A stretch of DNA of 34,079 nucleotides from a virus. The translations under genes and the position numbers were made by a program. The notes beneath the pieces were generated by a model. That model made no database searches. It saw nothing but the letters and a program-made list of their open reading frames with translations, and was not told the DNA's origin. The stretch lies in the IMG/VR virus record IMGVR_UViG_3300032116_000754, positions 1-34,079 of that record; one strand, 5' to 3'. Shown in pieces: positions 3,375-24,400 of the stretch (position 1 is its first letter; every line of letters starts with the position of its first letter).

Positions 3375-4994
3375 ATGCCCCCAAATATCCTCCGCTACGC
3401 CACAGCCGCACACTTCGGCGGCAACCCAATACAACAGGCGATCACTGAGCGGAGGAGGGCGGAGGAGGCTGAGGCGGCGGCGGTGGTGGAAGTTGTTCCC
3501 TACACGAAAACCTTCGAGCAATACATCGCCGATAGCTATCCACGCTTCCCTTTCACCACGCACACCAGGCGATTAATCGCCATTGGGCAGGAGGTTGCAG
3601 ACGGTAGCCTCCCCCGCGTGATGGTGGAGCTTCCCCCGCGCCACTGGAAGTCCACGATCTTCAGCCGCTTCCTGCCTGGCTACTGCCTACGCCGCTTCCC
3701 CGATCGCTCTGGGGGTATCTGCTGTCAGACCCAAGATCTTGCGGTGGGGTTCAGTGAAAATGCTCGGGATTACTTTGTGGCCAGCGGTGGCATCCTCAGC
3801 CGCTCCCAGGCCGGCAAGGAGGAGTGGTCATCAGCCGAGGGCATCGGAAGCATTTGGACCGCTGGCATCGGCAAGGGCACCGGCAAGCCTGGCCACTTCC
3901 TCTTCATTGATGACCCAATCAAGGGCCGCGAAGAGGCCGAGAGCGCAGCATTCCGCAGGCAGGTCCACAACTGGTGGGATTCCGTGCTGAGCACCCGCGA
4001 AGAGCCCGGCAACAGCGTTGTCGTGGTGCACACCCGCTGGCATGAGGCGGATCTGATCGGCTACCTCCTCGGCAAAAACTTGGAGCTGGAAAAGGAGGGG
4101 ATGGAGGATGACTGCGAGCGCTGGCATGTGATCAGCCTCCCAATCGAGGCGGTTGCTGCAAACGACATCAAACCCCTGCCAGCCACGGTCACCCGCGAAC
4201 GGGATTCAAGGCAGCCGGGCGAAGCGTTGGATCCGGGCCGCTTTGATAAGCGATGGATCAAACGGAAAAAGGCAAACACTCCAGAACGCGATTGGGAAAG
4301 CGTCTTCCAGCAGCGGCCAAGCAGCGGCAAGGGCACGGTCTTCTTTCTGGATCGGATGCTGTTCTATGGCTGCCCGCAGTGGCCCGGCCGAGAGGGAGAC
4401 CATGCGCTTCCTGATCGCTTCATCAGGAAGATCCTGTCAGTCGACTGCACGTTTGACGACACGGCAGGTAGTGACATGGTGGCCATGGGCCTATGGGGGC
4501 AGAATCACCAAGGGGCATGGTTGCTTGATCTTGTAAACGAAAGGCTAGACTTTCCTGCTACGGTAAAAATGATAAAGTCGATGTTTGTTCGCCATAGTTT
4601 CGGTGAGCTGTTGATTGAGAAAAAAGCAAATGGGGCAGCAGTTATCAAGACGCTGGTAACTGGTGCACAGGGTTATTCAGTGATCGCCGCTGGTGTTGGT
4701 GATATGGGCGGCAAAGAATCCAGGGCGAATGCTGCAAGCGTTGAATTCAACAATGGCCGTGTTTTCTTCCCCCGCTCTGCGCCGTGGACAAACACCGTGG
4801 TGCAGCAACACGTCAAATTCCCCGCCGATACCCATGATGACATCGTTGATCAAACGAGTCAGCTCCTGATCTACCTGACCAGCTCTGGCCCCATGAGTTT
4901 CAGCACCGTCTCCTACGGCTACGGCACCACCCAAGCCACCCCAGACCCGCGACACCTTGCCGGACAGAGCTATTCAGGGACTATCATAAGCTAG
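3375..4994 (+). CDS. terL: Phage terminase large subunit
   Basis: TerL pumps DNA into the prohead and cleaves the concatemer. The N-terminal ATPase shows a Walker A-like ELPPRHWKST (residues 85-94), a Walker B HFLFIDDP (174-181) and a coupling motif near VVVVHTRWHEADL (215-227). The C-terminal RNase H-like nuclease has its three acidic positions at D357 (SVDCTFDDT), E415 (LIEKKANG) and D488/D489 (HDDIVDQ). Length 539 aa is typical. No strong ribosome binding site precedes the ATG, which is common here. No small terminase is recognised upstream. The gene is followed 16 nt later by the sigma-like gene. Confidence 0.95.
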   Translation: MPPNILRYATAAHFGGNPIQQAITERRRAEEAEAAAVVEVVPYTKTFEQYIADSYPRFPFTTHTRRLIAIGQEVADGSLPRVMVELPPRHWKSTIFSRFLPGYCLRRFPDRSGGICCQTQDLAVGFSENARDYFVASGGILSRSQAGKEEWSSAEGIGSIWTAGIGKGTGKPGHFLFIDDPIKGREEAESAAFRRQVHNWWDSVLSTREEPGNSVVVVHTRWHEADLIGYLLGKNLELEKEGMEDDCERWHVISLPIEAVAANDIKPLPATVTRERDSRQPGEALDPGRFDKRWIKRKKANTPERDWESVFQQRPSSGKGTVFFLDRMLFYGCPQWPGREGDHALPDRFIRKILSVDCTFDDTAGSDMVAMGLWGQNHQGAWLLDLVNERLDFPATVKMIKSMFVRHSFGELLIEKKANGAAVIKTLVTGAQGYSVIAAGVGDMGGKESRANAASVEFNNGRVFFPRSAPWTNTVVQQHVKFPADTHDDIVDQTSQLLIYLTSSGPMSFSTVSYGYGTTQATPDPRHLAGQSYSGTIIS

Positions 4995-5010
4995 ATAAAT
5001 TGGCCAAATT

Positions 5011-5937
5011 ATGACAGCGGCCACAAGGCGCGTTAAGGGAGCAAGAAGCCTCAAGGCTAGGCCTGAAGCACAGCAGGGCGAAGCCAAGCTGGGAAGCTTC
5101 CCACCGCCAACGGAGCAGTCTGAGCAGCTTGCAATCGACAATCAAGGTCTTGCGCAAGACATGGCTGTTCGCATGGCCAAGGCGACTCGCATGGATCTGG
5201 AATCCCTCCAGGCGGTTGCTCTGTTTGGCCTGCTGAAGGGTTGCCGCCTGTATGACCCGGCCAAGACCAACCCGGCCAACGGCCGCCCCTACCGCCTCTC
5301 GACCTGCGTGGTGCCCTTCATCCGTGGGGCAATGCTGCACTACCTGAGGGACAAGGGGCACACCTCGGGAGTCCGGTTCCCTGATGCCTGGCGCGATGTT
5401 GCCCCCCGCGTGCGGAGGCTGGCGTCAGAGGGCGCGAGCCTTGATGCCATCAGCGCTCAGGTTGGATTGCCGGCGCAGGAGGTTGAGGAGATCTTGCAGG
5501 CGCAGCGCACGACCGCTCTGTTTGACCCTGAGATTGGCGACGTCCACCGCGACAGGCGCTGGCGGTGCGCTCCAGACCCCCTCGACGAGGCTGAGGAGCA
5601 CCATGAGTTGGCGGAAGCCCTGGCCATCGTGGATCAGGCCTTTGCGGCGATGAGCTGGCCGGATCAGCAGATGCTGATCAAGGGGTGGCAGGCGAAGCGC
5701 GGGCCACAGCTCGCCTCCATGCCCCATGGTCAGTTTGTGCGGCGCGTGCGGCGGATCCTCATGGGGCTCCCGGTTGCCGCGCCACAGCAGCCCCGCGTCA
5801 CCAGCTCAAAGCAGATCCTCGACGCGGCGAAGCAACTGGGCTTTTTTGATGCTCCCGAGCAAGGCGGGAAAACTCCAGCAGCAGATATAGGCAGTGCAGG
5901 TGAAGGCGATTCAGAAGATCAACCACCCGACCGATAA
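5011..5937 (+). CDS. Sigma-70-family-like transcription factor
   Basis: Residues about 40-115 resemble sigma region 2 of the SigB/SigF/WhiG-like group: NQGLAQDMAVRMAKATR, then LESLQAVALFGLLKGCRLYDP, then STCVVPFIRGAMLHYLRDKG, matching the usual GL..A...FDP...F..Y....IRG.I..YLRD pattern. A helix-turn-helix-like segment follows (LDAISAQVGLPAQEVEEIL, about 140-160), consistent with region 3. A degenerate region 4 may lie at QQMLIKGWQAKRG...FVRRVRRILMGL. The acidic tail after residue 265 is dispensable-looking. Location between terminase and portal is unusual. It may direct host RNA polymerase to phage late promoters such as the GGGAAAAC motifs described below; that link is inference. The 3' end overlaps the portal start by 44 nt. 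Confidence 0.75.
   Translation: MTAATRRVKGARSLKARPEAQQGEAKLGSFPPPTEQSEQLAIDNQGLAQDMAVRMAKATRMDLESLQAVALFGLLKGCRLYDPAKTNPANGRPYRLSTCVVPFIRGAMLHYLRDKGHTSGVRFPDAWRDVAPRVRRLASEGASLDAISAQVGLPAQEVEEILQAQRTTALFDPEIGDVHRDRRWRCAPDPLDEAEEHHELAEALAIVDQAFAAMSWPDQQMLIKGWQAKRGPQLASMPHGQFVRRVRRILMGLPVAAPQQPRVTSSKQILDAAKQLGFFDAPEQGGKTPAADIGSAGEGDSEDQPPDR
5866..5874 (+). promoter_or_regulatory. Late-gene motif GGGAAAACT, copy 1 (portal)
   Basis: GGGAAAACT lies inside the 3' end of the sigma-like gene, 28 nt before the portal GTG at 5894. It is the same motif and spacing as seven other copies upstream of morphogenesis genes. It supports 5894 as the portal start. A promoter -10-like role is inferred. Confidence 0.5.
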
Positions 5938-16868: not shown

Positions 16869-17202
16869 GGGCGGCGCTCCATGCTGCGTCTCTGGCTCGC
16901 CACCATTCGGCCACTGCAGCGGCGACTTCGGGCGAATGATCGCCGGCCGTGCATCCGGGTGATTCTTCAAAGCCGACTTGGATCATGTGCACTTCACCTG
17001 CGATGGTCTTTTCTTTCGTGTGCGCAGGTTTGTGCCAGTAAATTGGTGAGCCTTCGTCAACCAGATTAAGGGCAGGAGTAAAGCCCGCCGGGTGATTTTG
17101 ATCCCGAAAGTCTTTGATCACGGATTTAGCTCTAGCTGTTGCTGCTTCTTCAGAAGAAAACAGCTCATGCCACGAGCCGTTCCAGCAAGAAAAAATAGCC
17201 AT
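16861..17202 (-). CDS. Hypothetical protein, 113 aa
   Basis: Start chosen at ATG 17202 (MAIFSCWNGSWHELFSSEE); an extension to 17454 is rejected because it is low-complexity and overlaps the upstream gene. It appears alpha/beta with a helix of AATARAKSVIKDFRDQ, an internal beta part (GSPIYWHKPAHTKEKTIAGE) and a helical C-terminus (EVAAAVAEWWRARDAAW). No family recognised. Confidence 0.55.
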   Translation of the reverse strand: MAIFSCWNGSWHELFSSEEAATARAKSVIKDFRDQNHPAGFTPALNLVDEGSPIYWHKPAHTKEKTIAGEVHMIQVGFEESPGCTAGDHSPEVAAAVAEWWRARDAAWSAAHA

Positions 17203-17254
17203 GATTGCAAGTGATTGGGAATGCTTACCGGGCGCATCTCCCGCGCCCATGCCC

Positions 17255-17641
17255 CTATCGTGACCCATTGGCGACGCGGTGGGAGGGGTGGGGTGGGACT
17301 GTTGACAATTCGTCACAGGGCGCCGCGAGCTTGGCCCTGAGCAGCTCCCACCTGGCAGCCCGCTCGGGGTCCAGCCGGCGACGGGTGCGGCGACGGGTAC
17401 TCCCAGCGTGTTCCGATCGGCGCAGGTAGTACCGGCCGTGCTCAGCGGTGACACGGACTATGCCCAGCCGGTTGACGGCGGCCAAGCGGCGGGAGACTTG
17501 TGGCTGGCTACGGCTCCACCGGGCCATGAGATCAGCGGTCGCGGCCCGGCCGGGCACCAGTCCGGCTTCCAGTAGTTCAAGCGTGTCTAGGATTGCCCGG
17601 TCGCGGGCAGGGGTGCCGTCGCGGAGGTGAGTGATGTTCAC
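17255..17641 (-). CDS. Winged-helix DNA-binding protein (putative regulator)
   Basis: GTG start overlapping the methyltransferase TGA (GTGA). Residues about 15-75 fit a MarR/ArsR-like winged helix: AILDTLELLEAGLVPGRAAT, then TADLMARWSRSQPQVSRRLA (probable recognition helix), then a wing (GIVRVTAEHGRYYLRR). The C-terminal tail is basic (TRRRTRRRLDPERAARWELL). It probably binds DNA, perhaps regulating this block or partnering the methyltransferase. The target is unknown. Confidence 0.65.
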   Translation of the reverse strand: MNITHLRDGTPARDRAILDTLELLEAGLVPGRAATADLMARWSRSQPQVSRRLAAVNRLGIVRVTAEHGRYYLRRSEHAGSTRRRTRRRLDPERAARWELLRAKLAAPCDELSTVPPHPSHRVANGSR

Positions 17642-19893
17642 AGCCCTAGGCCCAGCTGGTGGCCAGCGCTGGCGACGCGAGAGAGGCGGGCTTCGGCTGT
17701 GGCGTGGCTCTCCTCCTCTCGCTCAATGCCAATGAAAACGAAGCCCTCCAGCAGGGCGCCCTTACCCGTTGAGCCCGAGCCCATGAACGGATCCAGCACG
17801 ATGCCACCTGGAGGGGTGACAAGTCGGCACAGGTAGCGCATTAGATCAGTGGGCTTAACCGTAGGATGTTTGTTGTCTTTATCGCGGTCTGACTTGCTGG
17901 CTTTGGCTGTGTAGAAAAAGCGAGCGGCGCTGCCAGTGTCGCCGTATCCAGCCTCGGCATTCATTGGCTGCATTTCTCCGTAGATGCCATGAGCCCCCAT
18001 TGCAAGACCGGTCGTCGCTCCACGCCGGAGGATTGCTTTTTGCATCCCTTGGGCCTGCGGAAACAACCCAACCACCTCATCGCTGCCATCGTGGATCAGA
18101 TTGGCGGGCCAGCGGCCAAGTGTTTCGGCTTTTGCTATTTTTTCTGTGGTTGTTTTTTTAAGCAATTCAATAGCTACTGGATCATGGCGGAACGGCCTAT
18201 CCCAGCCTTCTGACACCGCAGTTGTGGCTCCACCCCCGCCAAGTGAATCGCCCGTCGCCACTCTGCACCTATCTACATTCAGCCCCCCGGTGCCATGCGC
18301 CAGCACGTTTGCGGCCACGGTGCCTTGCAGGGGTTTGCGGGCCATGGTGATCGGCTCCAGGGCTGGTTTTAGAGCTGTGCCAAATCCGGCCCACTGCTGG
18401 GCTTCGGGGGTGGCGGGGGCGGTGATGGGGTCTCCGCTTGGCATATGGATGGTGACCCCTGCTCCCGCGTTGGGGCGGCGGCTTGCGTTGGGGCCTTCTC
18501 CCACCACCTCCCGCTCCACCCCCGCCACCTTATCAATCGCCTTGCTCACGTCCAGCGACTTCGGAAAGCCGCTATTCCCAGTTGGGAAAGCCATCCCATC
18601 GCGCCAAGCGACGAAACAGCCCGTGGGCACCTTCAGGCACCAGACCTTGCCGGTGTAATGGAAGGGTTCAACCCTGACCACAGTGGCTTGATGGCCGCTC
18701 CATGCTCGAACGCCTTGTGCTGGCCGTTTGTCGCAAACAGCATCAGATTCTCCATCCGGTTGTCCGTCGCGTCGTGGTTGACGTGATGCACGGCTTCCGT
18801 CCTGGTGAGCGGTCGGCCGATCGCCTGAGCCACCAGTAGCCGGTGCTCCATCACGTAGCCATCCTTCCGCGCCATGCTCAGCAGATCCACAGGGCAACGC
18901 ACGTACCGGATCGCCTGATTGGCATAGGCTCCCTTGCGGTTGCGATACGTCAACCCGCCTTTCCATGCCGGATTCGTGGCGCCAGTCATCCGCTCGGCCA
19001 AGGCCTGCTCCGACTCGGGCCGCCAGTTGCTCCGCCCCTTGCTGGCGTGCTGCTTCCATTCCTCGCCGCGGAGCTTGCCATTGCATTGCCGGCTGCAGAC
19101 CGGCGTGGCGACACGCTTCAGCCATGAATCGGCTCTGAGCACTTCGGCGCCGCAGACTGCGCACGCCACCCGGCTGAGCTTGCGCTGCTCGATTGGCATG
19201 GGGCCGCTGTTGGCCTTGCCGATCATCGCGGCCGCGCACTCTCTGCCACAGGTCTTGTTCCTGACCGCCTGCTCCTTGGTGTGCGTTGCGAAGGGCTTGC
19301 TGCAGTGCTGGCAAGTCTTCCAGAACGGGTACACGCGCTTGCTGTTCCAGTGTCTCGGAAAGCTGGAATACTTCGCTTCCGCTTCGTTCAACAAGGCAGC
19401 GATGGTTTCGGGAGACGACTTGCTCGCCGTGATCTCCGACCAAACGGTAGGCGGTATCTGAGTAATCGTAGACGACGACATTTTGAATCGGCTGGTAGTT
19501 GTATTCCTTTGTCTCTACATTGTAGCAGAGTACGGGATCGCCTGCCTTGGCGCTATGGTACGGACTGGGGCCGTTAGGAGTGACGAGCTGAGTCTGCTCA
19601 TCAAGGCACCCGTAGACCCAGGCGATCATGTCGCGGATCTCAAACCCCGCATCCTCAATTCGCACAGCCATTCGGTGTTGCGTGCGCGTCCCAGCAAAGG
19701 CCAGCAGGTGACCCCCAGGCTTCAGCACCCGCAGGCATTCAGCCCACACCTCAACCGTGGGCACGTCGTAATCCCATTTCTTCCCCATAAATGACAATCC
19801 ATAGGGCGGATCTGTCACCACGGAATCAACTGACGCATCGGGCAGGGTCTTGAGAACCTCCAGACAGTCGCCAAGGTGAAGGGTGTAGCTCAC
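17638..19893 (-). CDS. DNA methyltransferase (beta-class) interrupted by an intein
   Basis: The extein parts form a beta-class DNA amino-methyltransferase. The catalytic DPPY motif lies at residues 28-31 (VVTDPPYGLSFMGKKW), and the SAM-binding LDPFMGSG lies near 700-707, followed by GKGALLEGFVFIGIE. A 345-residue intein (96-440) splits WVYG from SGFPKSLDVSKAIDK, which are contiguous in this methylase type. Removal would give a 406-aa enzyme. It likely methylates adenine or N4-cytosine to protect phage DNA or alter regulation. GTG start overlapping the upstream TGA. Inside the intein, the host frame from about residue 195 to 420 is Arg/Gly/Gln-rich and looks like an out-of-frame reading of the nested HNH gene. 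Confidence 0.88.
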   Translation of the reverse strand: MSYTLHLGDCLEVLKTLPDASVDSVVTDPPYGLSFMGKKWDYDVPTVEVWAECLRVLKPGGHLLAFAGTRTQHRMAVRIEDAGFEIRDMIAWVYGCLDEQTQLVTPNGPSPYHSAKAGDPVLCYNVETKEYNYQPIQNVVVYDYSDTAYRLVGDHGEQVVSRNHRCLVERSGSEVFQLSETLEQQARVPVLEDLPALQQALRNAHQGAGGQEQDLWQRVRGRDDRQGQQRPHANRAAQAQPGGVRSLRRRSAQSRFMAEACRHAGLQPAMQWQAPRRGMEAARQQGAEQLAARVGAGLGRADDWRHESGMERRVDVSQPQGSLCQSGDPVRALPCGSAEHGAEGWLRDGAPATGGSGDRPTAHQDGSRASRQPRRDGQPDGESDAVCDKRPAQGVRAWSGHQATVVRVEPFHYTGKVWCLKVPTGCFVAWRDGMAFPTGNSGFPKSLDVSKAIDKVAGVEREVVGEGPNASRRPNAGAGVTIHMPSGDPITAPATPEAQQWAGFGTALKPALEPITMARKPLQGTVAANVLAHGTGGLNVDRCRVATGDSLGGGGATTAVSEGWDRPFRHDPVAIELLKKTTTEKIAKAETLGRWPANLIHDGSDEVVGLFPQAQGMQKAILRRGATTGLAMGAHGIYGEMQPMNAEAGYGDTGSAARFFYTAKASKSDRDKDNKHPTVKPTDLMRYLCRLVTPPGGIVLDPFMGSGSTGKGALLEGFVFIGIEREEESHATAEARLSRVASAGHQLGLGL
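18574..19608 (-). mobile_element. Intein in the DNA methyltransferase
   Basis: Block A starts at Cys96 (CLDEQTQLVTPNG). Block B-like sequence is GDHGEQVVSRNHRCLVE. Block F/G at the end reads HYTGKVWCLKVPTGCFVAWR then MAFPTGN before +1 Ser. The splice residues are therefore C1, terminal Asn and Ser+1. The penultimate residue is Gly rather than His. Boundaries give 1035 nt, exactly in frame. The central part carries no in-frame endonuclease domain; instead an HNH ORF lies in the +1 frame. Confidence 0.88.
18633..19481 (-). CDS. HNH homing endonuclease nested out of frame inside the intein
   Basis: A 282-residue frame, one base off the methyltransferase frame on the same strand. It has two zinc-finger-like parts (TCQHCSKPF ... 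TCGREC and ACAVCGAEV ... CSRQC), a NPAWKGGLTYRN segment, then EHRLLVAQAIGRPLTRTEAV and HHVNHDATDNRMENL (about 232-246), the HNH motif of phage-type endonucleases. The ORF opens at ATG 19481, but its first 50 residues overlap intein splicing blocks; GTG at about 19334 (VYPFWKTCQHC) is an alternative start. It would cut an intein-less allele and promote intein spread. Translation from this frame is inferred from the motif quality. Confidence 0.85.
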   Translation of the reverse strand: MSSSTITQIPPTVWSEITASKSSPETIAALLNEAEAKYSSFPRHWNSKRVYPFWKTCQHCSKPFATHTKEQAVRNKTCGRECAAAMIGKANSGPMPIEQRKLSRVACAVCGAEVLRADSWLKRVATPVCSRQCNGKLRGEEWKQHASKGRSNWRPESEQALAERMTGATNPAWKGGLTYRNRKGAYANQAIRYVRCPVDLLSMARKDGYVMEHRLLVAQAIGRPLTRTEAVHHVNHDATDNRMENLMLFATNGQHKAFEHGAAIKPLWSGLNPSITPARSGA

Positions 19894-20039
19894 GCCCCCA
19901 CCCTCCTCACCCGCCCCACCGGCTGGCGGCGCTTCTTCTTGCCCATCTTCTCAGGCAACACCTTCCCCCGGAGATCCAGGGGATCGAGCATGGTGGCCGC
20001 CACCTCGGAAGGTGTGGGATAAAAATCAGGATTAAACAT
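19890..20039 (-). CDS. 49-aa protein resembling the N-terminus of a SAM methyltransferase (possible remnant)
   Basis: ATG at 20039 overlaps the upstream stop by 8 nt, and TGA overlaps the methyltransferase GTG (GTGA). The start MFNPDFYPTPSEVAATMLDP then LDLRGKVLPE matches the opening of a class of DNA methyltransferases (FYPTPxxVxxxML...GxxVLEPSAG). The SAM-binding motif is missing: the sequence runs instead into KMGKKKRRQPVGRVRR. It may be a truncated relic or a repurposed short basic protein. The call depends on remembered family sequences. Confidence 0.5.
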   Translation of the reverse strand: MFNPDFYPTPSEVAATMLDPLDLRGKVLPEKMGKKKRRQPVGRVRRVGA

Positions 20040-20406
20040 TGCTCACCCTCCGCATCAAACCCTCAGCCGTCTCATCCTCCAAAATCATCCTCCTCAGCGC
20101 CTTCAGCGCCTGCGCATTGACACTGCGCTCCTCCAGTCGGTCTAGCTGAACCCCGATCAGCCTCACAATCCGATCGCGCTCCAGTAGGCGCACCTGCTCA
20201 TCCCTGGCCTCTCGATCCTCAGCAGCCTGCGCAAGCTGCAGAGCGGCATGGTGTTCGATCGCCGCCGCGCACTCCGCACGCATGGCCTCCAGCCGTGCAT
20301 CAGCCTCCTGCAGGCTCTGCTCAAGCTGGCGGCGCTCCAGCACCATTGCAGGCACCGCCTCCACGAGGGCATCAAGACCCTCTCTGACCACTTCAAATGT
20401 GTTCAC
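20032..20406 (-). CDS. Coiled-coil protein, 124 aa
   Basis: Almost entirely a charged helix (LERRQLEQSLQEADARLEAM, EDREARDEQVRLLERDRIVR). GTG start overlapping the C39-like peptidase stop (GTGA), so it is probably translated with it. No membrane segment or lipobox is seen, which argues against a classical spanin. Function unknown; a lysis-accessory role by position is only a guess. Confidence 0.6.
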   Translation of the reverse strand: MNTFEVVREGLDALVEAVPAMVLERRQLEQSLQEADARLEAMRAECAAAIEHHAALQLAQAAEDREARDEQVRLLERDRIVRLIGVQLDRLEERSVNAQALKALRRMILEDETAEGLMRRVSNV

Positions 20407-21011
20407 TTTTTAATCTCCAGCCACCAGCCAGTACCCGGTTGAAACCTTCCGCCCGCGCCAACCATCCACCGCCGGCCCCAGTTCTTTTCGGAATACCATT
20501 GCCCCTTGCCACTGCCGATGGCGGTGGTCACGTAGCCACCGCGCACAAGATCCGCCTCCCCGTTGGGGTCGTTATGTCGAAAAAGAGCACGGGCTTCATC
20601 CCAACCCGTCACAAGCGACAAATGGCCGCTGCCCGAGGGGAAGGACACGTCGCCGCGATGGAGCCAGCCCACGGGTATCGGGATCCCCGCCCGCAGTTGC
20701 GCCACCAGGTTGGCAATTCTGCCGTCGAATCGCATGACGGCTGCAATTTTCAGCGTGCGCAATGCACTGATCTGCGCCGCTGCATCTGTGGTGTCGCCAA
20801 ACCGCTTAACGATCTCCAAATAAACATCATCCGGCTGCCGCCCCGGACGCTTCAGGCAACCGGGTCGCAGAAACTCGGCCGCCATGGCACAGGTTGACGA
20901 AAAGCACATCCTGTAGCCTTCGCCAGTTACAGAATCAAGCTGTGCAAAATAGGGAACATTAAGATCAATCAATGCCTTGGGTCTTTGTGGTGTTGGTGTC
21001 ACAGTTTCCAT
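20403..21011 (-). CDS. C39-like cysteine peptidase (candidate endolysin)
   Basis: The protein (202 aa) resembles Peptidase_C39_2-type papain-like folds: VPYFAQLDS supplies the oxyanion Gln, GYRMCFSSTCAMAAEFL provides the nucleophile Cys (residue about 36), GHLSLVTGWD the His, and RHNDPNGEADL a downstream Asn/Asp. It lacks a signal peptide. C39-like domains occur in phage lysins that cut peptide bridges of peptidoglycan, so lysis is plausible, but a role in processing is possible. It is followed, with a GTGA overlap, by a coiled-coil gene. No holin neighbour is obvious. Confidence 0.7.
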   Translation of the reverse strand: METVTPTPQRPKALIDLNVPYFAQLDSVTGEGYRMCFSSTCAMAAEFLRPGCLKRPGRQPDDVYLEIVKRFGDTTDAAAQISALRTLKIAAVMRFDGRIANLVAQLRAGIPIPVGWLHRGDVSFPSGSGHLSLVTGWDEARALFRHNDPNGEADLVRGGYVTTAIGSGKGQWYSEKNWGRRWMVGAGGRFQPGTGWWLEIKK

Positions 21012-21488: not shown

Positions 21489-24400
21489 GTGTCTGAGATC
21501 ACCGACTTTCCCGCGTCCGCACCTGCCGCCGAGGCCGTTTTCTACCGCACCTACAGCCGTAAGGGGTCGATGGGTCGCGAGAGCTGGCGCGAGGTGGTGG
21601 AGCGCAACCTGAGGGGTCTGACGGCCATCGGGAAGCTCACGACGCAGGAGCAGGCCCTGCTGCGCACCATGCAGCTCGAACAGATGGCGCTGCCCTCTGG
21701 CCGCTGGCTTTGGGTTGGTGGCACCAACTGGATCGAGCGCCCTGAGAACTTCAGTGGCGCCTACAACTGCAGCTCCACCAATCTGATCGACTGGGAGGCC
21801 TTCGCCCTGATGATGGATCTGGCGATGATGGGCTGTGGTACGGGCGCGGTCATTGAGCCGTGGCTGATCAAGCGGCTGCCGAAGATCAGAAACAAGATCG
21901 TGATCGAGGAGGTCACAGATGTTGGCACCGTTTCGCAGGACAGGCGGCTGTGCCTGACAAGCAAGTTTCTGGATCGCCCAAGGTCAACGGCAGTGATCAC
22001 CGTCGGCGACTCCCGCCATGGCTGGGTTGACGCCTACCGCACCCTGTTGAAGCTGAGCACGGATGAAGCCGTTGGCGCTGAGCCCATTCGCGTCACAATC
22101 GACCTCTCTCACGTTCGCCCCGCTGGCGAGCCTCTAATGGGCTTCGGCGGTGTTGCCAACCCGGTCAAGTTGCAAGACCTCTTTGGCCGGCTGGCGGCGA
22201 TCCTCAACCGCGCACACGGGCGGCAACTGACCCCCGTGGAATGCTGCCTGCTGATTGACGAAGCGGCGCTGGTGGTGGTGGCCGGGAACATCCGCCGTAG
22301 CGCAGGGATGCGGCAGTTCAACGCCAAGGACCAGGCCGCAGCCACCGCGAAGGACGACCTCTGGGAGCAAGACGGCGAGGGGGGCTGGCGCATTGATCCC
22401 GAGCGCGACGCCTTGCGCATGGCCAATCACACCCGTGTCTTTCACTCCAAGCCCAGCAAGGCGGATGTGCTGGCGAGCGTGCGGAAGCAATTCCATAGCG
22501 GGGAGGGGGCGATCCAGTACGCACCCGAAGCGGTTGCACGGTCTAACGCGGACCTGCTGGACACGGCCGGGCGGAAGCAAGACTTCATCAATGCGTATTG
22601 CCGTGGCCAGCTCGAAGGGCAAATCTATTTAGACAGGCTGGGAGACTTCCAAGAGTCGAGAGAGCAAATTGAGCACAGGGTAGGGAGGTATGGGCTTAAC
22701 CCGTGCTTTGCTGCTGGCACCATAGTCCTAACTAGAGATGGTCACTTCCCAATTGAGGCGCTTGTGGGCCGCACAGTTGAGGTTCATGATGGCAGCGAAT
22801 GGGTCACAATCAACAGCTTCCGAGTAACGGGAACAAATCAGCCCGTGCACAATGTTGAATTGAATAATGGGCAAGTGCTTACAGTTACCGGGCCTCACAA
22901 ATTCATTCTTGAGGATGGCACGCGAGTCAAGGCCACGGAGCTGTGTGGGGGAATGCGCCTCGCTCCTGCGGTGGTCACGGTTGAAGGCACCGCGCACGCA
23001 AAGGCCGCATACCTGAAGGGCTTCTTGGTTGGCGATGGCACGCGAAACCGAGAAAGCGGCATCCCTGCCTGCAAGGTTTACGAATCTAAGCGGGCCTGCC
23101 TTGATCGACTGGTTGAAAGCCAAAAAGAGATGAAGATGAAAGAAATGGTTCGCGCTAACGGCAAGGTAGTTGGGGATTCTTATGGCTTGACCGATGCAGG
23201 CTACCTGCGCAATCTGAATCACCCTGAGAGTGATTGGATGCTTCCATGGTGCTCTGTTTACAAGCACGAATTCCCCTTTGAAGTCTTGAATTGGACTCGC
23301 AAGTGCCAATGTGATTTTATTGCTGGCTTATTTGACGCAAATGGCACGGCCATGGATGCAGCGAACGGCTTTGCCTATCAAATTACATCTATCTCTAGGA
23401 AGTTCCTTGAAGGCCTTGGGTTGCTGCTGACACAGCTTGGTGTCAGGTGGAAGATTGGCCCGGTTCGCAAGGGTGGGCAAAGAGATTTTGGCGCCGAACG
23501 TGGAGGCGTTTACACCGTAAAAGACAACTACAAGCTTGCAATCCCTCAGGGTAGTTCGATTGCGCTGGCGAAAATGGTCACGTTTGCAAGACTTAAAAGC
23601 TTTGCAGACCGCAAGACCGCTTACAAGACAAAAGATAATTCTTATGTCGTTTCCAAGGTCACCTTTTCGCATATTGCGGAAGAGGTTTACTGTTGCACGG
23701 TTCCTGGCAGCCACTCATTCACCTTAACCTGTGGAATAGTTAGCGCACAGTGCGGCGAGATTAGCGGTCAAGACTTCCACTGCAATCTAGCAGAAGTTCA
23801 CCTCAACCGATTAGATCCGCACTCATCCTCTGAGCAGGTTTCAGCCTTCAAGGCCGCCACCCTCTCCGCCGCCGCACTGCTGCACCACCGCTTCGAGGTT
23901 GAGCGCTTCCGCAAATCCCGCGAATGGGATCCGATCGTTGGGGTGAGCTTCACGGGCCTCTTTGACTTCTTTGTCAAGGATCTGGGCGTGGACTGGCTGA
24001 AGTGGTTCGTTGCCGGACGGCCAGACTCCAGCGAGGGCGATGCCTTCCGTGAAGCCGAGGCCGCACGCCTGCATTTCTGGCGCGAGATCGTCAAGAACGC
24101 TCTGTACGACTACTGCACAAAGCACGGCTTAAAAATGCCCAACCGCTACACCACCGTGCAACCGGCCGGCACCAAGAGCCTGCTCACCAACGCCTCCCCC
24201 GGTTGGCACCCGCCCAAAGCCCAGCGCTTCATCCGCCGCATCACCTTCCGCAGGGATGACCCCGTGGCCCTGGCGTGCCTGGATCAGGGCTTCTCCATCG
24301 TGCCCAGCCAGAGCGACAAGGACGAGCAGGGCCGCCTACTGGATGACCCCTTTGATCCCCGCTGCACGGAATGGCTGGTAGAGATCCCCACGGAGGTGCC

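Follow-up and report, generated by a model that had tools for sequence, protein, structure and literature searches.

The closest described relative of the arrangement reported here is the ShiLan domain, an HNH endonuclease encoded out of frame within phage methylases while the frame of the host gene stays open (PMC11855218, 2025; earlier PMC9957025). No splicing domain was found for the ShiLan insert, and it is predicted to remain in the protein (PMC11855218). An out-of-frame HNH in a phage methylase is, as such, not new. The locus studied here lies in a 34-kb IMG/VR virus record, IMGVR_UViG_3300032116_000754; we refer to the whole analyzed stretch of 34,079 nucleotides as the window. It shares with ShiLan a phage DNA methylase as the host, a related HNH in another frame of the same strand, an open host frame and a patchy distribution. 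The ShiLan HNH (like that of Mantra), however, has the +2 phase and a downstream site and lacks a HINT domain, whereas the HNH of the window has the +1 phase and is found at YG/SGFPKS (the slash marks the insertion point) together with the two halves of a HINT domain. ShiLan gp65 does have an intein at the very site of the window intein, but with an in-frame LAGLIDADG domain in place of a nested HNH. Because ShiLan has no splicing domain and another phase, we consider the widespread splicing intein described below, with its endonuclease as a nested gene in another frame, to be new, its splicing, cleavage and homing being inferred. Our literature search found no paper on an out-of-frame endonuclease in a real intein; a preprint on a "non-canonical architecture" (10.1101/2025.01.02.630785), cited by the ShiLan paper, may overlap.

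Conventional homing inteins resemble the window intein in their HINT elements (C1, block B, block F and a terminal Asn) and in occupying a conserved site of the host gene. They differ in keeping the endonuclease in frame; here it lies outside the intein polypeptide, in the +1 phase at 66 loci, and the center of the host frame is unstructured. Dassa et al. reportedly described, in 2009, split inteins whose halves are separated by a free-standing homing endonuclease gene. The likeness is that the endonuclease is a separate protein encoded between intein halves. The host methylase of the window is not broken in two, however, but is a single ORF open throughout, and the intein shares its DNA with the nuclease gene, which is read in another frame.

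Our preferred reading, to which we assign a probability of roughly 85%, is that of a mobile intein in a phage DNA methyltransferase whose splicing and homing functions are encoded in two frames of one DNA (Table 1), with splicing, internal initiation, cleavage and homing all inferred. We directly observe two functional frames under selection, a conserved phase, intact splicing residues, an intact HNH motif, and only a weak link between the relatedness of the inteins and that of their host genes. Reading in the methylase frame would yield one precursor made of the N-extein, a HINT half, a long meaningless linker, the other HINT half and the C-extein; the two halves would fold together and excise the intein by splicing. 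Ribosomes starting at an internal codon in the intein would read the +1 frame and yield a separate HNH protein with its own start and stop, so the nuclease would never have to fold inside the intein. By inference, it would cut methylase genes without the insert near YG/SGFPKS, and repair would then copy the intein and nuclease together. If an intein can house its homing enzyme as a gene nested in a second frame, a single protein need not, as is usual, form the folds for both splicing and cutting.

Table 1. Features of the methyltransferase locus in the window.
Feature	Coordinates	Strand	Content or basis
DNA methyltransferase precursor ORF, 751 aa	17638..19893	minus	N-extein 19609-19893, C-extein 17638-18573, intein between
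Intein, 345 aa, C1 ... N345, +1 Ser	18574..19608	minus	Open in the methylase frame; Foldseek to inteins, profile match
N-terminal HINT half of the intein, residues 1-111 (C1 in block A, SRNH in block B)	19275..19608	minus	AlphaFold pLDDT about 90 or more
C-terminal HINT half of the intein, from about residue 296 to 345 (VWCLKVPTG...TGN)	18574..18723	minus	
Nested HNH endonuclease gene, 282 aa, +1 frame	18633..19481	minus	Pfam/PHROG matches
Dual-coding stretch: intein block B region (host frame) and HNH N-terminal helices (+1)	19308..19481	minus	Stop counts, codon-position differences, both folds confident
Nested-only stretch: HNH under amino-acid selection, host frame open as unstructured linker	18724..19274	minus	pLDDT below 50; shuffle test
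C-terminal overlap: end of the HNH, with its stop codon, within the C-terminal HINT half	18633..18708	minus	

The methylase flanks match Pfam N6_N4_Mtase (7.6e-31). Between them the intein opens with CLDEQTQ and closes with AFPTGN before the +1 Ser, without a stop across 18574-19608; the clear splicing blocks that an earlier note on this DNA had read at both ends are intact, from C1 to TGN/S+1. All 45 of the tabulated inteins have C1, the final GN and the +1 Ser, and block B reads Q-V/I-V-S-R-N-H, its H69 being invariant among the aligned inteins. A penultimate His is usual in inteins, not universal, and hence not strictly defining. Here it is absent, its place being taken by Gly344, which is likewise invariant among the aligned inteins. 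Given this Gly, and with no splicing data at hand, splicing is assumed from conservation. The AceL NrdHF intein is a profile match (2.2e-8), while the whole host-frame intein of 345 aa gave no Pfam match on its own because its splicing halves are far apart; for the mini-intein L086 the Pfam HINT matches were sub-threshold only. In the AlphaFold prediction, residues 1-111 and about 296-345 are confident, mostly above 90, and residues 114-294 are mostly below 50. The model thus has a HINT domain that folds confidently around an unstructured center, and the top Foldseek ranks were taken by inteins (AceL NrdHF, gp41-1) and Hedgehog HINT domains. As a side observation, the window intein and its relatives have an invariant Cys in block F (VWC) beside the invariant C1, with Gly before the final Asn, and the best fold match of the window intein is a class 3 split intein; their splicing chemistry may be unusual.

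The nested ORF matches Pfam HNH_3 (3.7e-7) and several PHROG HNH families. The claim that an HNH ORF lies in the +1 frame inside a methyltransferase intein was correct in coordinates and content, on the minus strand, and is supported by these matches, by GC by codon position and by the shuffle tests below. The protein consists of N-terminal helices, two Cys-pair zinc-finger-like parts and an EHR...HHVNHD...N...NL HNH motif; both the two zinc-finger-like parts and the full HHVNHD...N...NL motif were already recognized from the sequence. Within the family, H213, H232, H233 and N245 are invariant, and H236 and N241 are conserved at 90% or more. An AlphaFold prediction built with 41 family sequences reached a mean pLDDT of 87.4, and the N-terminal helices encoded by the dual-coding stretch (residues about 11-40) reached 96-98. 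Neither the HNH profile nor, by Foldseek, the model matched a solved structure, so the HNH identity rests on sequence profiles.

Relatives were collected from viral-contig scans with the HNH, the methylase, a mini-intein, the intein alignment and the HNH alignment, together with a genome scan and a phage collection; the search of plasmids gave no match. This yielded 66 loci that are not near-identical, the window included, with the order methylase N-part, intein N-half and HNH; nearly all of them also have the intein C-half and the methylase C-part. The two-frame layout is therefore present in at least 65 other loci, in viral and bacterial sequences that range from 33 to 63% GC and include, from the genome scan, contigs binned as Kiritimatiellae, Bacteroidota and Gallionella. 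The phase of the HNH is +1 in 66 of 66 loci, as it should be if the alternate frame were conserved in other methylase inteins, and not one host-frame stop was seen in any intein with both ends recovered. Of 80 relatives retrieved with the HNH, 76 have an open host frame; by contrast, 3-27 stops interrupt the third frame. The suspicion that this is a class of mobile element annotated wrongly is borne out for the methylase intein family of the window (66 loci): annotation as long methylases with Arg/Gly/Gln-rich centers misses the endonuclease.

A second group of 26 non-redundant loci (L042, L045, L047-L049, L052-L054, L056-L058, L061, L063-L070, L072-L077) carries this same HNH in the +1 frame of the methylase, between SGFPKS-L/H-N-I and GTALKPA, with no intein halves detected. 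In many of these loci, Cys motifs of the host frame flank the HNH part, CxC before and CGRCGKP after, as though the insert were anchored at its base by a zinc ribbon. One further contig (L032, the same contig as L306, about 3384-5084) has an antisense HNH between two methylase halves; the methylase's own frame has many stops in this gap, and no Rfam intron was found in it.

The evidence for two selected frames comes from composition, from stop codons and from substitutions. In the nested part of the window, GC at the three codon positions of the HNH frame is 0.60/0.50/0.83, against 0.83/0.61/0.49 for the host frame; the third-position comparison, which had been proposed as a check, thus favors the HNH frame there. 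Synonymous HNH codons were then reshuffled, only where the HNH overlaps no folded intein, in 47 loci: 380.7 host-frame stops were expected and 0 observed, which supports the claim that the host frame remains open across the whole ORF (in the window, without a stop in 345 aa). The same shuffle in the group without inteins gave 189.9 expected versus 2 observed, the 2 probably being junctions where in-frame stops had been dropped. Conversely, redrawing the host codons over intein residues 49-100, where the HNH N-terminus overlaps, gave 81.3 expected HNH-frame stops in 45 loci versus 0 observed, with 104 in the third frame. Homologues with a closed alternate frame had been named as grounds for refutation; we found the HNH frame closed in the overlap region only where the HNH has a later start (L038, L044) or is missing (the mini-intein L086).

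Substitutions were compared in 15 independent pairs. Differences per HNH codon position were.125/.242/.204 in the overlap and.233/.214/.441 in the nested middle, and by host codon position.227/.187/.390 in the intein before the overlap; within the dual-coding overlap no codon position is free in either frame. Together with the stop tests, these differences indicate that the overlap codes for two proteins, and that in the nested middle only the amino acids of the HNH matter, the host frame being merely kept open. As judged from the sequences alone, then, one stretch of DNA is under selection for double reading, which makes the family a large and statistically clear example of phage DNA that codes twice on one strand over a long distance. 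Dual coding at both ends of the HNH had been proposed in the earlier note with overlaps of 150 and 60 nt; the dual coding stands, but the lengths do not, the N-terminal overlap being about 175-205 nt (19481 to about 19275-19308) and the C-terminal one about 76 nt.

How the nuclease would be started is less uniform. A conserved start position lies one codon ahead of where the family HMM begins; it has ATG in 32 and GTG in 5 of 66 loci, and Shine-Dalgarno pairing upstream of these codons averages -4.9 kcal/mol against a background of -2.2 kcal/mol (p=8e-7). In four loci (L008, L024, L186, L218) a stop interrupts the HNH frame 1-3 codons before its ATG, which makes internal initiation the simplest reading. 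These starts and upstream closures also support the idea that protein splicing is separated from endonuclease production, with expression being inferred. However, 29 of the 66 loci (about 44%), the window included, have no ATG or GTG at the conserved start; 14 of the loci, again with the window among them, have ACG, and the ATG of the window at 19481, four codons before this ACG, has no Shine-Dalgarno sequence. For such loci initiation remains unexplained. These loci, and the many in which the HNH frame is open well upstream, would suit ribosomal frameshifting, by which the HNH would be a +1 extension of the methylase-intein precursor without a start of its own. The four closed frames and the stronger-than-background Shine-Dalgarno pairing at the ATG/GTG sites speak against this, and no common slippery motif was noticed, although no systematic search was made for one; we regard frameshifting as unlikely, if still worth keeping in mind.

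A ShiLan-type insertion, in which the out-of-frame HNH would be retained in the methylase protein without splicing, has the homology of both the HNH and the host gene on its side, as well as the match of the ShiLan and Mantra HNHs to the family HMM and the 26 relatives with a nested HNH and no detectable intein. It leaves the conserved HINT halves, the invariant C1 and N and the confident HINT model in the window and its group without a role, and the ShiLan HNH itself is in the +2 phase, further downstream in the same gene; we see only a slim chance for it here. As a separate observation, in two loci (L222, L225) the nested HNH intein (+1 phase) is followed downstream by another HNH match, whose +2 phase is that of ShiLan, and there may be two kinds of hidden nuclease within one methylase gene.

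The remaining alternatives can practically be set aside. That two frameshift errors in a decayed or mis-sequenced in-frame HNH intein made both frames was stated beforehand as a result that would refute the nested gene, and nothing but the layout itself suggests it; it is excluded by the 65 other contigs with the same phase and both frames open, by a single phase across 66 divergent loci and by selection on both frames, and no in-frame HNH version was found. The single phase-0 match (L255) lies at a contig end and appears to be a product of misassembly. Group I introns often host HNH genes, and their endonuclease is, as here, a product separate from the splicing element. A self-splicing RNA intron with an HNH ORF has hardly any credibility at this locus, however: a scan of 17000-20600 against Rfam was negative even with E values up to 1 allowed, HINT halves are present, placing splicing at the protein level, and the host frame has been kept free of stops, for which an intron would have no use. 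It could finally be argued that only the HNH is real and that the host frame stays open passively in GC-rich DNA. The window is indeed GC-rich, but shuffling the HNH codons at equal usage produced about 8 stops per locus in the host frame, the openness extends to loci with 33-45% GC, and free-standing homologues have 10-31 stops in that frame; nor was any close intein homologue found with host-frame stops and a conserved HNH. This explanation, too, is negligible.

The site YG/SGFPKS occurs in several states. It is empty in L088 and L089, the methylase N-part of L088 matching that of the window at 92%, and it holds an in-frame LAGLIDADG intein in ShiLan and Akhila. The mini-inteins at this site, L086 (154 aa) and L248 (141 aa), share the splicing family of the window intein but have no nuclease, and the +1 frame of L086 has a stop within the overlap region. 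With empty sites, mini-inteins, in-frame LAGLIDADG inteins and nested HNH inteins at one methylase site, the evolution of homing elements can be compared directly. Mantel correlations, a simple measure of mobility, were not significant between extein and intein (rho 0.13, p=0.10), but were significant between intein and HNH (rho 0.44, p=0.002) and between extein and HNH (rho 0.33, p=0.002). The signs of homing activity are only indirect, namely the patchy distribution and the weak extein-intein correlation; cleavage and insertion are inferred.

A free-standing, full-length homologue of the HNH (L292:2468-3304; 48% identity over residues 7-268) starts at an ATG of its own and has neither an intein nor a methylase nearby; the frame kept open in inteins here contains 31 stops. 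In the HNH tree it groups among the intein-borne HNHs with moderate support; it may be an intein-born nuclease that has escaped. In the same tree, nested copies with and without an intein are intermixed, so the nuclease seems to have moved between these two contexts. Block B is part of the HINT fold, which is ancient; the overlap is therefore most simply explained, by inference, if the N-terminus of the HNH originated through overprinting of the intein and departed with the nuclease later on. The fuller proposal is a class of mobile inteins with homing and splicing in overlapping frames. Overprinting of block B would have created the N-terminal helices of the HNH de novo (about 45 residues that perhaps contact DNA), and the new module would then have become free-standing, as in L292. 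We offer this proposal tentatively, at a little less than even odds. The block B overlap, which is also present in the free-standing nuclease, provides a testable case of a protein segment born by overprinting.

Some minor observations on other inteins may be added. One relative (L243) has a 199 aa intein with its HNH only partly left, and another (L258) a 144 aa mini-intein with a stop codon, which together form a decay series. The splicing-domain family of the window intein (VWCVTVPTGAFVARRNGK), with an in-frame LAGLIDADG domain, was also found in an apparent terminase large subunit in L251, L256 and L257. The window itself has a conventional intein with an in-frame LAGLIDADG domain at 22704-23750 on the plus strand; its host gene, opposite in strand to the methylase and about 3 kb away from it, encodes a class II (B12-dependent) ribonucleotide reductase.
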